Shown one piece after another: positions 36,454 to 40,461 of a DNA stretch of 40,856 bases. Under the pieces are notes generated by a model. The model was not told the DNA's origin, ran no database searches, and saw only the letters and a program-made list of their open reading frames with translations. The position numbers were made by a program, and so were the translations under genes. The DNA is from Tsukamurella conjunctivitidis (lineage in GTDB: Bacteria; Actinomycetota; Actinomycetes; Mycobacteriales; Mycobacteriaceae). The stretch lies in NCBI RefSeq assembly GCF_007858475.1, contig NZ_VIGX01000025.1, positions 1-40,856 on the forward strand. Direction: 5' to 3'. The stretch's first letter is position 1. Each line of letters starts with the position of its first letter.

Positions 36454-37030
36454 TCAGGCCCGGCAGTCGCCCCGGACGAAGGCTTTGAGCATGCCCACCG
36501 CCTGGTAGCTGTACGTCAGCGCCAGTCCGCGAGGTTGAACCGGTACTGCCGCGGCACCGCGCGCATCACGGTGCCGCCGTCGAAGCAGTGCCCGAAGACG
36601 TACCTCGCGCGGACCAGGTGGTACCCCCAGCTGACCACGATCACGGAGCACCATCCGTACCGCTCGGCAAGCCGCTGGGCGAAGATCGCCTCGCCGCGGG
36701 TCGTGTTGGCTCGAGCGTCTCGCACAGGACGCGGATGCCGCCGGCGTCCCCGGCGCACAGCCGGTCCATCAGCGGGGCGCCGCTGCCGTACGGATCGGAC
36801 AGGACCACCGTTCCCGCGTAGCCCGCCCGCGCGAGGTCCAATCCGTACTCCTCGCGGCCGTCGTGCTCGGGGGCGAGCACGACGATCGCGTCGACCCGGG
36901 TCAGCGGATCTTCGGACGAGCGCCCGTACACCAGCCACCCCGCCGAGAGCACCGTCGCGACCACGACCGTCATCACGGCGGCGAGCCCCCAGACCGACCG
37001 CCGGAGCCTCGCTCCCCGCCTCACGCCCAC
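36454..37030 (-). pseudogene. YdcF/DUF218-family membrane protein with two frameshifts
   Basis: From GTG 37030: one N-terminal TM helix (VWGLAAVMTVVVATVLSAGW), then VDAIVVLAPEHDGREEYGLDLARAGYAGT as in YdcF-family proteins. Coding then jumps frame near 36712 (ANTTRGEAIFAQRLAERYGW, VIVVSWGYHLVRARYVF) and again near 36518 (ALTYSYQAVGMLKAFVRGDC, stop 36454). Each jump is repaired by adding one G to a short G run (GAGCC to GAGGCC; TGGCG to TGGGCG). The family is thought to act in envelope-related metabolism. True decay or homopolymer errors. Confidence 0.75.
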
Positions 37031-37158
37031 CGGATCGAGAGTACCGCCGGCCCCGACGACCGGCCCCTCCCTGTTCGGGCGTGACGACGCGGCGGCCCAA
37101 TGATCCGCGTAGGGTGCTCATCACCACGAGCCGCGCACCGCTTTCAGGAGTGACATCC

Positions 37159-38202
37159 ATGGAGATCCTCGTTCCGGGTCCGGAGGCCGACGCCCGCGTG
37201 ACCGAGCTGCGCGCCGCAGGGTTCGACCTCGTGGACGGCTGGTCCGCCGGAGGCCCGGAACTCACCGCGCTCGCCGCCCTGCCGCAGCCGCCGGCCGGAT
37301 GCCCCGAAGCCTGGGACCCGGGCGACGAAGAGCGCGTGGAGGAACTGAGCCGCTACGTGGTGTGCAAGTGGCGGCGGACGATCGCCCGCCTGCCCCGGTC
37401 CGACGTCTACCACCTGCTCCGGACCGCCCGAAATCGCCACCTCATCTCCGACGCCGACCAGGCCTCGTGGTCGGCGTCGCTGGTCGGGGTCGTGGGGCTC
37501 AGTGTCGGCTCGTCGGCCGCGACCGCGTGCCAGCTCACGGGGGTCCGTCGCTTCCGCATCGGCGACGGCGACGAACTCGGGATCACCAATCTCAATCGCA
37601 TCGTCGACTCCGCTTTCAACGTGGGCACGGCCAAGACCGAGTCACTGCGTCGCCGGCTACTCGAATGCGATCCGTACGCGTCGGTCGACACTTTTCCGCA
37701 AGGAATATCCGAATCCGACATCGATTCTTTTCTCTGTGGGGATTCGGGGGACGAACAGCTTTCGGTGCTGATCGAGGAGATCGACGGCATCCACATGAAG
37801 GTGGCCCTCCGCCGGCGCGCACGCGAGCTCCGCATTCCGGTGGTGATGGCGACGGATCTCGGTGACGACGTGGTACTCGACGTCGAACGGTTCGACATCG
37901 ACGAGCACACCCCGATCCTGGGCGACCGTCTGGCGTCGTTCAGTGACGATCAACTGCGCGACCGGGAGCCGAGTACGGCGGTCGCGCTCGCCGGCGCCCT
38001 CCTCGCCGACGTCGTCACCCCCCGGATGCTGGAGGTCGCCGGCGAGGTCGGGCGGAGCCTGAGCTCGTGGCCGCAGCTCGGCAGCACCGCCATGCACTCC
38101 GGTGCTGTGGCCGCCCACGCCGCCAGGCTGATCTGCACGGGCCACGAGCTCGCCACGGGGCGCTATCTGCTGCGTTCCGAATTCACTACTACACACAACT
38201 GA
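37159..38202 (+). CDS. ThiF/E1-like adenylyltransferase, stand-alone
   Basis: 347 residues from ATG 37159 with AGGAG 9-13 bases upstream. After a unique 100-residue N-terminal region, residues 105-250 are a ThiF/MoeB/E1 fold: VGVVGLSVGSSAA (nucleotide loop), GDGDELGITNLNRI with D138 and the N-x-N-R arm, VGTAKTESL with Lys159, and LIEEIDG. Such enzymes adenylate a C-terminal carboxylate or a small substrate. The CxxC zinc ligands of ThiF/MoeB and any ubiquitin-like partner are absent here. The core resembles the ThiF part of MoeY-type proteins. Immediate downstream gene is a GNAT/LuxI-like protein. Confidence 0.85.
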   Translation: MEILVPGPEADARVTELRAAGFDLVDGWSAGGPELTALAALPQPPAGCPEAWDPGDEERVEELSRYVVCKWRRTIARLPRSDVYHLLRTARNRHLISDADQASWSASLVGVVGLSVGSSAATACQLTGVRRFRIGDGDELGITNLNRIVDSAFNVGTAKTESLRRRLLECDPYASVDTFPQGISESDIDSFLCGDSGDEQLSVLIEEIDGIHMKVALRRRARELRIPVVMATDLGDDVVLDVERFDIDEHTPILGDRLASFSDDQLRDREPSTAVALAGALLADVVTPRMLEVAGEVGRSLSSWPQLGSTAMHSGAVAAHAARLICTGHELATGRYLLRSEFTTTHN

Positions 38203-38291
38203 CGTGCGAATCGGGTAATCGCCCGAGCGCTTGCACCCCAGCTGAACGCAGTACGTCTTGTCGGTCTGCGATCGCACAGTTCACGACACCA

Positions 38292-38309
38292 CCGCGTGAT
38301 GCGGTTTTC
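38292..38309 (+). terminator. Weak intrinsic terminator after the ThiF-like gene
   Basis: ACCGC-GTGAT-GCGGT followed by TTTC: a 5-bp stem with a short T run, about 90 bases after the stop codon. Weak but correctly placed. Confidence 0.4.
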
Positions 38310-38368
38310 GTCATTGGAAAGTTCGCGACAGAACTTCTCATCCAATCCTGCGCGTTTACCCTTTGAGC

Positions 38369-38387
38369 ATTCGATCCGATATCGAAT
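38369..38387. promoter_or_regulatory. Palindromic operator upstream of the GNAT/LuxI-like gene
   Basis: ATTCGAT-CCGAT-ATCGAAT is a perfect 7-bp inverted repeat with a 5-base spacer, 54 bases before ATG 38442, in an AT-richer 239-base gap. The size and symmetry suit a dimeric repressor or activator. Confidence 0.5.
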
Positions 38388-38441
38388 ACCGCTCTCGGTC
38401 AAGAATACGACATGGCGTCGTCACAATTGAAAGGAACACAC

Positions 38442-39185
38442 ATGACCATCGATTCTGCCCTCGTCCGCGCGGTCACCGGTCCACCCGCCGCAACGCCTCT
38501 TCCCGAGCACGGCGTGGAGTTCGTCGATCGCCGCACCGGCGTGACCTGCATCTTGGACACCCCCGCGCGCCGCCCGGACCTCTGGCGCCAGTACCTCGAC
38601 GGCGTCGAGCGCGCGTACCGGTCCTGGGGCGTCGAAGAAGCCTTCGATCGGCACGAGGTCGAGACCGGTTCGTCGACGACGCTGTTCTGCGCGATCGTGG
38701 ACGACCAGACCGGCCGGGTCGTCGCGGGGCACCGGATGCAGGGGACGTACTCGAGCGCGGCCGAATCGCACGCACTCATCGAGTGGGCGGGACAGCCGAG
38801 CCTGCACCTCCTCGTCGACGCCATCGACTCGCGGCTCGACGGAGGGCTCATCGAGGTGAAGTCCGCCTACGTCGGGCTCACCGACGAGCGCGCGGGTGGC
38901 GTTGCCAACCTCCTGTCCCGCGTGGGCCTGATCGTCATGGCGCTCACCGACGCGCGGTACATGATGGCGACGGCGGCGGAGCACGTGCTCAAGCGGTGGT
39001 CCCAGGGCGGCGGCCGGATCGACCGGTCGATCCCCGCTACGCCGTACCCGGGCCCGCAGTACCGCACCCAGGTGATGTTCTGGGATCGGGACCGGTTGCG
39101 CGCCGACGCCGAGCCCGGCCTGTGGCCGCTGATGCTGACCGAGTTCCACGAGGCATTTGGATCTAACCTGCAGTCTGCAGGCTAA
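38442..39185 (+). CDS. GNAT/LuxI-fold-like acyltransferase candidate
   Basis: 247 residues from ATG 38442 (GAAAGGA 6-12 bases upstream); an in-frame ATG at 38412 lacks an RBS. The order of segments, YLDGVERAYRSWGVEEAF, then an acidic strand, VDDQTGRVVAGHRMQG, GLIEVKSAYVGL, and GLIVMALTDARYMMATAAEHVLKRW, follows the beta/alpha plan of LuxI autoinducer synthases and FeeM-type N-acyl amino acid synthases (an E-x-K/R strand, then a helix with an Ala/Gly-rich turn). It is not identical to any family I can name with certainty. It lies between a ThiF-like enzyme and a GGDEF protein and has its own operator. Confidence 0.55.
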   Translation: MTIDSALVRAVTGPPAATPLPEHGVEFVDRRTGVTCILDTPARRPDLWRQYLDGVERAYRSWGVEEAFDRHEVETGSSTTLFCAIVDDQTGRVVAGHRMQGTYSSAAESHALIEWAGQPSLHLLVDAIDSRLDGGLIEVKSAYVGLTDERAGGVANLLSRVGLIVMALTDARYMMATAAEHVLKRWSQGGGRIDRSIPATPYPGPQYRTQVMFWDRDRLRADAEPGLWPLMLTEFHEAFGSNLQSAG

Positions 39186-39218
39186 ACAGCACATGCACCC
39201 GCGGCCACGTCGACAACC

Positions 39219-39256
39219 GGCGTTTCAATGACTGCCTAATCGCACCCATTGAACCG
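39219..39256. promoter_or_regulatory. Long hairpin between acyltransferase-like and GGDEF genes
   Basis: CCGG..TTTCAATG (39214-39231 area) and CATTGAACCGG (39248-39258 area) pair as an interrupted stem around a 15-base loop. It could end the upstream transcript or act in the leader of the GGDEF gene. No T-run follows, so a regulatory role is as likely as termination. Confidence 0.35.
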
Positions 39257-39357
39257 GCTGCATGAGGGATGCAATACAGTGTGTGCTTTGGTACGGAGGA
39301 CTCCAGTGCGAGGCTGTGTATGAGGCCGCGCTGCGCACGGCAGAAGGTGGACCGAAG

Positions 39358-40461
39358 ATGAAGCAGTCACCTGATGTATCCGGTAGACTACCGATGTCCG
39401 ATTTCACGGGCGGAATCTACTTCGGCTTCGATCTCCGCTCGCTCGGCCTCCTCTTCAGTGTTGGCGGCGCGGTTCCCCTGCCGCTACTGGCACTAGTCGA
39501 TCCTGGCCTGGTGGTCCCGGGCGCTCTACCTTGGTTGTCCGGGATCTGGTTCTATAGCGTGTTGTCGTTCATCGTCGTGGTCCGGGCGCGACCGGCGGTC
39601 AGCGATTGCACGTTCATCGCGCTCAGTTCGGGCGGAATGTTCGGCATCGGGCTGGCCTCATTCCTGGTGGCAGACGCCCCTGCGGCGAGCGTGATACTCT
39701 GCCTGAACGCAGCTATACCCGCACTCGCGGCAATGCAGTCACGGGCGGTAGTGGTAGTGGCGTTCCAGGTCGGCGCGCTGTTCTTCATCGTCGCGCACGC
39801 TGCTTCGGAGCGGGATGAGCCCGCAGTCGCCCTCGTCCGGTTCGGTGTCGCTACTCTGGCCACCTTATTCCCGACGCTTATCGTTCTCGGATTCCGCCGA
39901 TCGCTGGAGCACCTCCTCCGGGTTCAGATAGAGCTCGCTCGGATCGATCCCCTCACTGGTGTGTTCAATCGCCGCGGGCTAAGCGATCACGCAGCTCGAT
40001 TGCTCGCTTCCAACCAGAAAGTTGGTCTCCTGGCGATCGATATCGACAACTTCAAATCCATCAACGACGTCAACGGTCACGCACACGGCGACGAGGTTCT
40101 AGTCCGGACCGCCAGCCGCCTCGTAAGCCTCGCCGGGCCGGATGCGGTAACGGCTCGACTCGGTGGCGAAGAGTTCTTGATCGTGACGCCGGTCGATCAG
40201 CTCGAGTCGATCGAGCAATTAGCCGAGCAGATCCGTATCGCGATAGCTTGCGACGGCGAGGTCACTGTCAGCATCGGTGCTGTCATGCACCCAACACCGG
40301 TTCTTGGCCCGGAGACCCTTACCTGTAGTGCTGACGTTGGCGCAAACAAACCAGTGGCACTCTTTGACGACCTCATCAAATCAGCGGACCGACAGATGTA
40401 CGCAGCCAAACAAGCAGGCCGCAACCGTGTCGTCGTGGAATATGCGATCGATCAGGCGTGA
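39358..40461 (+). CDS. Membrane-bound GGDEF diguanylate cyclase
   Basis: 367 residues from ATG 39358 (AGAAGG upstream); ATG 39394 is a second option. About six TM helices (residues 27-180) form an unrecognised sensor, followed by a GGDEF domain: RIDPLTGVFNRRG (195-207), LLAIDIDNFKSINDVNGHAHGD with metal Asp228, and ARLGGEEF with the active GGEEF at 269-273. All catalytic residues are present, so c-di-GMP synthesis is likely. There is no RxxD inhibitory site in the usual place before GGEEF, so product inhibition may be absent. No EAL domain is attached. Confidence 0.9.
   Translation: MKQSPDVSGRLPMSDFTGGIYFGFDLRSLGLLFSVGGAVPLPLLALVDPGLVVPGALPWLSGIWFYSVLSFIVVVRARPAVSDCTFIALSSGGMFGIGLASFLVADAPAASVILCLNAAIPALAAMQSRAVVVVAFQVGALFFIVAHAASERDEPAVALVRFGVATLATLFPTLIVLGFRRSLEHLLRVQIELARIDPLTGVFNRRGLSDHAARLLASNQKVGLLAIDIDNFKSINDVNGHAHGDEVLVRTASRLVSLAGPDAVTARLGGEEFLIVTPVDQLESIEQLAEQIRIAIACDGEVTVSIGAVMHPTPVLGPETLTCSADVGANKPVALFDDLIKSADRQMYAAKQAGRNRVVVEYAIDQA

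Follow-up and report, generated by a model that had tools for sequence, protein, structure and literature searches.

An acyltransferase, a ThiF-like enzyme and a membrane diguanylate cyclase as a candidate oxidase-less oxazolone locus in Tsukamurella conjunctivitidis

Which product could be made by a ThiF-like enzyme and an acyltransferase whose genes are followed by that of a diguanylate cyclase, and why do these three genes stand together? The question is raised by contig NZ_VIGX01000025.1 of Tsukamurella conjunctivitidis (assembly GCF_007858475.1; order Mycobacteriales, phylum Actinomycetota), of which positions 1 to 40,856, hereafter called the window, were analysed. An initial annotation, made from the letters alone, had reported a ThiF-like gene, a gene for a protein of 247 amino acids (aa) and a GGDEF gene in a row, and all three open reading frames (ORFs) were found at that place, in one direction and near the contig end. 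The reading favoured here, to which a probability of a little under 60% is given, is that the ThiF-like protein and the acyltransferase form an oxidase-less oxazolone-type pathway yielding a saturated N-acyl oxazolone, with the neighbouring membrane diguanylate cyclase as a dedicated partner. Its observed basis is homology, fold prediction, kept ATP-site residues, the absence of a flavin oxidase (FDO) domain and a recurrent linkage to genes for cyclic di-GMP (c-di-GMP) enzymes.

The same trio in the same order was identified in a relative of the same genus (locus L090), with identities of 57, 57, and 47% for the ThiF, acyltransferase and GGDEF proteins, respectively. Since L090 keeps both the trio and its order, the three ORFs are regarded as genes rather than chance frames.

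The ThiF-like enzyme and the acyltransferase

The 347-aa protein contains a Pfam ThiF domain (E 1.4e-17) and matches the NCBIfam family NF005901, 'Rv1355c family', at positions 56-332 of 722 (E 4.3e-66). As this match spans the N-terminal half only, the C-terminal half of the family is absent from the window protein. Among 25 aligned sequences, the window included, the RNR arginines, the GxSxG loop, DxD, NLNR, a lysine and D209 never vary, and by these conserved adenylation residues the protein is predicted to be a ThiF-like ATP-dependent cyclase. In TrzS, a ThiF-FDO fusion of the Rv1355c type, the exchange D217A abolished cyclisation (PMC12856293, available text); D209 of the window protein sits at the expected place of this Asp217 and is probably its equivalent. 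The lack of zinc ligands pointed out in the initial annotation was confirmed, since the protein has no CxxC and thus no zinc ligands of ThiF/MoeB E1 proper. No ubiquitin-like partner could be recognised among the adjacent ORFs, the rest of the genome not having been searched for one. A molybdopterin or thiamine E1 (MoeB, ThiF) was rejected, as the NCBIfam scores were far under the respective cut-offs.

In the ThiF tree, the window protein and that of L090 form a pair whose branch is very long, with 2.03 changes per column to the midpoint root. This branch, the loss of the FDO partner and the presence of MccB and TcdA among the PDB profile matches would also suit an acyl-aminoacyl adenylate that is used otherwise, for example to join the acyl amino acid to a third molecule by an amide or peptide linkage in the manner of MccB-type E1 relatives, so that no oxazolone is formed. 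However, the invariant residues of TrzS-type cyclases are kept, the acyltransferase retains those of its own family, and L090 has only three genes in common with the window, although its trio has a P450-like gene as tail-to-tail neighbour. Such a third-molecule product is considered quite unlikely.

Up to E 1, neither Pfam nor NCBIfam gave a match to the 247-aa protein. Because the acyltransferase alignment also gave only chance-level matches to Pfam and PDB profiles, the fold was assigned through the structure model alone. LasI, TofI and FeeM head the VIA-align list for this model and BjaI is also close, with 8-14% identity in those rows; a GNAT-like fold of acyl-homoserine lactone (AHL) synthases is therefore predicted from the model, in agreement with the GNAT-like character proposed initially. 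The likeness is one of fold only, and for this reason an AHL synthase proper is not favoured. To our knowledge, LuxI systems have no ThiF partner. The window protein is homologous to acyltransferases adjoining ThiF-FDO genes and keeps the invariant residues of that family. By these homologues and the LuxI/FeeM-like model it is assigned to the TrzA-type N-acyl amino acid synthases.

The acyltransferase search gave 51 match rows, one of them the window, and 48 of the 50 others were fetched, in 47 regions. The 49 acyltransferase loci counted here leave out G135:C323 and G188:C37 as well as L002, L003 and the plasmid loci, and include L090, which was added from the ThiF search. A ThiF domain was present in the fetched region at 43 of the 49 loci (window included) and an FDO domain at 39. 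The linkage of the two genes is thus conserved; its absence, like a predicted fold of the 247-aa protein other than GNAT-like, had been named beforehand in the initial annotation as refuting, and neither case arose. The loci L043, L047, L060 and L079 hold an acyltransferase gene and no ThiF domain in the fetched region, with a GGDEF gene still close in L060 and L079, and may make plain N-acyl amino acids. Acyltransferase genes broken into two pieces were seen at L088:7992-8623 and L146:1580-4263. The latter (G135:C323) lies beside an intact-looking ThiF-FDO frame on a 4.5-kb contig that carries no GGDEF.

In the available text of PMC12856293, Rv1356c (TrzA) acylates tryptophan, and TrzS converts the product to N-acyl tryptazolones by cyclisation and then desaturation (in vitro, with the M. 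smegmatis protein); the amino acid is acylated first, and the carboxylate is then activated with ATP and cyclised. By analogy with these homologues characterised by others, on which acylation, cyclisation and desaturation rest, the 247-aa enzyme would move an acyl group from acyl-coenzyme A (or acyl carrier protein) onto an amino acid, probably an aromatic one. The ThiF-like enzyme would use ATP to adenylate the carboxylate, and closure of a five-membered ring by the amide oxygen would yield an N-acyl oxazolone. The initial annotation had proposed adenylation of a carboxylate followed by acyl or aminoacyl transfer to an amide signal. As related pairs are published oxazolone synthases, this chemistry came close: an acyl-amino-acid product is right in kind, but the order of the steps is reversed, acylation preceding carboxylate activation in the homologues (PMC12856293).

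The missing oxidase

No FDO domain was found at the window locus or in L090. An FDO domain query gave no match in the whole genomes of the window (G000) and of G303, which shares the trio, while all of the six further genomes searched, which include the one that supplied the query, gave matches with E 2.7e-55 or better. With the flavin oxidase half absent and no such FDO found elsewhere in the genome, the product is predicted to stay saturated (an azlactone); it would be AHL-like and should hydrolyse readily. A saturated product is favoured by the saturated cyclised TrzS intermediate, which accumulates in vitro under limited O2 (PMC12856293, available text). In N-acyl tyrosine clusters of other phyla, ThiF and nitroreductase genes are described in the accessible part of PMC12479983, which reports for a strain making only saturated compounds a candidate cluster without ThiF and nitroreductase genes.

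Desaturation might instead be supplied in trans by another flavoenzyme of the genome, and the end product would then be an ordinary unsaturated oxazolone. TyzC is a separate protein in the tyz cluster of M. tuberculosis (PMC10404671, as far as available), and the window genome contains four ordinary nitroreductase matches. None of the four, however, lies on the contig of the window, none is above the cut-off of the Acg-type family (the single one under it has E 7.9e-4), and the FDO-A domain search was empty in G000 and G303 alike, which makes desaturation in trans distinctly unlikely.

In a set of 50 strong ThiF matches (E at most 1e-100) from 298 genomes of the order, those of G160:C37, G067:C7 and G060:C42 lie in frames with no room for an FDO, as do that of G183, at a contig end, and that of the window. 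In this search, as in the sensor-profile search and the 396-genome phylum search described below, the 7 to 11 best first-look candidates per genome were scored, and some matches were possibly missed. In the acyltransferase tree, which omits the two L088 pieces, the window and L090 are grouped with L002, L044, L043 and L060 (SH-like approximate likelihood ratio test, SH-aLRT, 86), and in the ThiF tree L044/L092 are sister to the FDO-bearing L002 (95). It is concluded from these groupings that loss or detachment of the oxidase probably took place at least twice. The ThiF of L145:1912-2880 (G060:C42) occupies a frame of 448 codons, and the 12 kb fetched there contain neither FDO nor acyltransferase nor GGDEF; this ThiF may be something else, perhaps another branch with a different role.

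With half of the TrzS gene gone, a long ThiF branch and two-piece acyltransferase genes elsewhere (L088, L146), the pair could also be imagined as a decaying trzAS remnant that makes nothing useful after loss of the oxidase. This is very improbable, as two species have all three frames open, with 47-57% identity between them, and the invariant residues are kept.

Linkage with c-di-GMP enzymes

A GGDEF domain lies within 5 kb at 42 of the 49 acyltransferase loci in the order, compared with 1.19 expected by chance from the per-genome GGDEF numbers; the counted loci are related by descent and hence not independent, and their linkage stands for coupling, not for sensing. G034 and G289 have no GGDEF match other than that at their oxazolone locus. 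Outside the order, 396 genomes of the phylum were searched and five more genomes with the locus were identified (L103-L107). In each of the five, a single frame of 987-1021 codons covers acyltransferase, ThiF and FDO and is adjoined by a GGDEF-EAL gene, which lies upstream of it in L103-L105 and downstream of it in L106-L107. A further locus of this kind outside the order, the sixth, is L003 (Acidimicrobiales), which is also GGDEF-linked. The single frames, of about 970-1020 codons, apparently represent a single-chain oxazolone synthase in actinobacteria outside the order. A GAF domain was found in all ten GGDEF-EAL partners scanned (L045, L053, L066, L080, L086, L103-L106 and L003).

The usual partner at the fetched loci is such a GGDEF-EAL protein, whereas that of the window is a membrane GGDEF protein without EAL. 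It matches Pfam GGDEF with E 6.7e-31 and 107.7 bits (cut-off 23.8) and carries GGEEF, i.e. an intact GG(D/E)EF motif. By inspection it lacks RxxD, which we take to be the motif of the inhibitory site. A profile of its membrane sensor (A3, six rows) gave four matches in the 298 genomes, each of them at a locus with acyltransferase or ThiF; as A3 was built from rows that it then matches, the informative part is the lack of other matches. The A3 sensor was also found in the GGDEF gene of all five Rhodococcus plasmid trios examined (L138, L139, L141, L142 and L143), and the single Nocardia plasmid locus (L144) combines a ThiF-FDO gene with a GGDEF-EAL partner.

In the GGDEF tree, for which rows were thinned from 83 to 61 after removal of five duplicate loci and L056 was labelled background merely by a 1.6-kb threshold, the membrane type was placed among other EAL-less GGDEF domains. 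One clade uniting the membrane type with the linked GGDEF-EAL partners was rejected (p 3.5e-5), and the six membrane-type rows were compatible with a single clade (p 0.78); the groups for these tests were named once the tree had been seen. Because the two types do not form a joint clade, oxazolone genes seem to have acquired a c-di-GMP enzyme on two or more occasions, from two different GGDEF lineages.

The membrane domain of the cyclase would most likely sense the lipid product or a precursor and alter the c-di-GMP output; alternatively, c-di-GMP and lipid output might be co-controlled. That the cyclase senses or relays the signal had been supposed in the initial annotation and is made more plausible by the linkage counts; the coupling is what these counts demonstrate, and sensing is what we infer from it. 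The recurrent partnership of acyltransferase, ThiF and GGDEF in many actinobacteria hints that the lipids are signals. If the coupling reflects function, the lipid should change the activity of the neighbouring cyclase, which offers a concrete test of the oxazolone role, and the oxidase-less trio, as the smallest form seen, would be a convenient model. The physiological role of oxazolone lipids is called a major unresolved question in the available text of PMC12856293. More speculatively, acyl-oxazolones could be the missing chemical input of a c-di-GMP circuit across much of Actinomycetota, with a coupling invented at least two times (GAF-GGDEF-EAL and membrane GGDEF) and with the saturated, short-lived, AHL-like ring of the window, sensed by the membrane cyclase, as an actinobacterial counterpart of quorum sensing. 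In this full extent the idea is rather unlikely.

Several points speak against a saturated oxazolone with a dedicated cyclase. The 223.6 bits of the window ThiF protein, for the N-terminal half only, are under the curated NF005901 cut-off of 476, and the L002 protein for comparison reaches 760.6 bits. The structure model of the ThiF protein is poor (predicted local distance difference test, pLDDT, 60), and the long branch shared with L090 may reflect a changed substrate or reaction. For the acyltransferase model, FeeM is only 11th in Foldseek's own ranking, with other GNAT enzymes ahead. A missing FDO-A does not exclude another flavoenzyme. As no cyclised intermediate was detectable with TyzA and TyzB alone in RHA1, according to the available text of PMC12856293, a saturated oxazolone may not accumulate. 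Seven of the 49 loci are without GGDEF within 5 kb; L043, L047, L074 (GGDEF 6.1 kb away) and L088 (the broken acyltransferase) have full flanks, and L055, L070 and L089 are at contig ends. At L140 and L148, the stretch fetched has a ThiF-FDO gene but neither acyltransferase nor GGDEF, and a strict clade of all linked GGDEF-EAL rows was rejected (p 0.0017).

Neighbourhood, mobility and known systems

The features of the window and the single-frame loci are listed in Table 1. AGGAG (37146-37150) lies upstream of the ATG of the ThiF gene and AAGGA (38431-38435) ahead of the acyltransferase gene. For the GGDEF gene, the internal start at 39358 is likelier than the first one and gives 367 aa, near the 368 aa of the relative in L090. 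The promoter scan gave no sigma-70-like site and one terminator-like site, against a shuffle mean of 1.9. The acyltransferase gene had been given its own palindromic operator in the initial annotation. The perfect repeat ATTCGAT-N5-ATCGAAT is the single one of its kind in 38200-38445, but 11% of 500 letter shuffles contain at least one, and the inverted repeats in the L090 gap differ from it. The operator is unsupported, the repeat not standing out from chance.

Table 1. Coordinates of the trio and its parts in the window, and of single-frame loci outside the order (locus handle before the colon).
Feature	Coordinates	Strand	Basis
ThiF/E1-like predicted cyclase, 347 aa, TrzS/TyzB-like, no C-terminal FDO domain	37159..38202	+	Pfam ThiF; NCBIfam NF005901; invariant ATP-site residues
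Acyltransferase of 247 aa resembling N-acyl amino acid synthases (OxzA/TyzA/TrzA type); GNAT fold as in LuxI/FeeM predicted	38442..39185	+	
Membrane diguanylate cyclase with GGDEF and no EAL; true start probably at 39358	39262..40461	+	Pfam GGDEF; GGEEF motif
Membrane sensor part of the cyclase; family seen only at acyltransferase/ThiF loci among those searched	39394..39933	+	alignment A3
GGDEF catalytic domain	39934..40437	+	
7-bp inverted repeat, not above chance	38369..38387	.	repeat search and letter shuffles
Single-frame locus	L103:7983-10787		
Single-frame locus	L104:5407-8163		
Single-frame locus	L105:4851-7673		
Single-frame locus	L106:6015-8804		
Single-frame locus	L107:5689-8481		
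Single-frame locus	L003:7821-10733		

The window and Gordonia rhizosphera (L002) share four genes near the trio (74, 65, 77, and 74% identity), presumably those of an aminotransferase, a methyltransferase and two epimerases of glycan type. c-di-GMP commonly controls glycan production. Both points would fit a lipid that is an envelope component or surfactant and is not sensed, the cyclase being a neighbour through joint control of envelope or biofilm. Against this, L090, the nearest relative, has the trio alone in common with the window, and the linkage recurs at the six loci outside the order (L003, L103-L107) and, with other neighbours, on Rhodococcus plasmids; an envelope lipid of this kind is held to be unlikely. 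The coupling to a surface-glycan locus suggested in the initial annotation thus holds in G. rhizosphera and fails in L090, and a glycan cluster as obligate partner was rejected.

The Rhodococcus plasmid trios are on NZ_CP042915.1 (twice), NZ_CP046101.1, NZ_CP088909.1 and NZ_CP096567.1, with recombinase or transposase genes near the trio on NZ_CP042915.1 and NZ_CP088909.1. The two separate trios of NZ_CP042915.1 are at 131354-135556 (L138, near recombinase and insertion sequence (IS) genes) and 300967-305215 (L141). Within the genus of the window, any ThiF match was found in 4 of 16 genomes (one weak), the close form only in the window genome and G303. Given the plasmid trios near recombinase or transposase genes and this occurrence within the genus, it is concluded that the trio behaves as a portable module.

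Other genes were noted in the surroundings. On the minus strand of the window, the gene before the ThiF gene (36516-37030), which we take to be of the YdcF/DUF218 type, is apparently split across two frames by a pseudogene state or a sequencing error. The contig ends (40793-40856) within the apparent start of what is presumably an IS3-type transposase gene. The gene tail to tail with the cyclase of L090 (L090:4548-5963) is assumed from its heme motif to be cytochrome P450-like, and an annotated P450 adjoins an Rv1355c family gene on the Mycobacterium dioxanotrophicus plasmid NZ_CP020811.1.

In the open-licence literature searched, no account was found of the wider linkage, of a GGDEF partner of the membrane type, or of a trio of acyltransferase, ThiF and cyclase that lacks the oxidase; one sentence in the available text of PMC12856293 mentions that c-di-GMP genes adjoin the pair in M. 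tuberculosis. TrzAS, as described there, combines the same kinds of acyltransferase and ThiF-like cyclase with adjoining c-di-GMP genes, but TrzS has a fused FDO and the window has none. TyzACB of M. tuberculosis, which makes tyrazolone, resembles the window in its stand-alone ThiF cyclase (TyzB, 318 aa) and in a separate acyltransferase with a FeeM-like fold, the TyzA model being similar to FeeM and BjaI; it differs in having TyzC (FDO), and no c-di-GMP gene is named among the tyz neighbours in the available text of PMC10404671. OxzAB of Pseudoalteromonas rubra, as described in the accessible parts of PMC12856293 and PMC10404671, likewise pairs an acyltransferase with a ThiF-type cyclase, but OxzB is a ThiF-FDO fusion and the organism belongs to the Proteobacteria. 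FeeM and the LuxI-type synthases (PDB 2g0b, 1ro5, 3p2h, 5w8c) resemble the 247-aa protein in its predicted fold, at the low identity given above. The Rhodococcus plasmid trios have an acyltransferase (annotated 'hypothetical'), an Rv1355c family gene and a GGDEF gene with the same membrane sensor, all adjoining as in the window, but there the FDO domain is kept and the acyltransferase gene is divergent from the Rv1355c-type gene.

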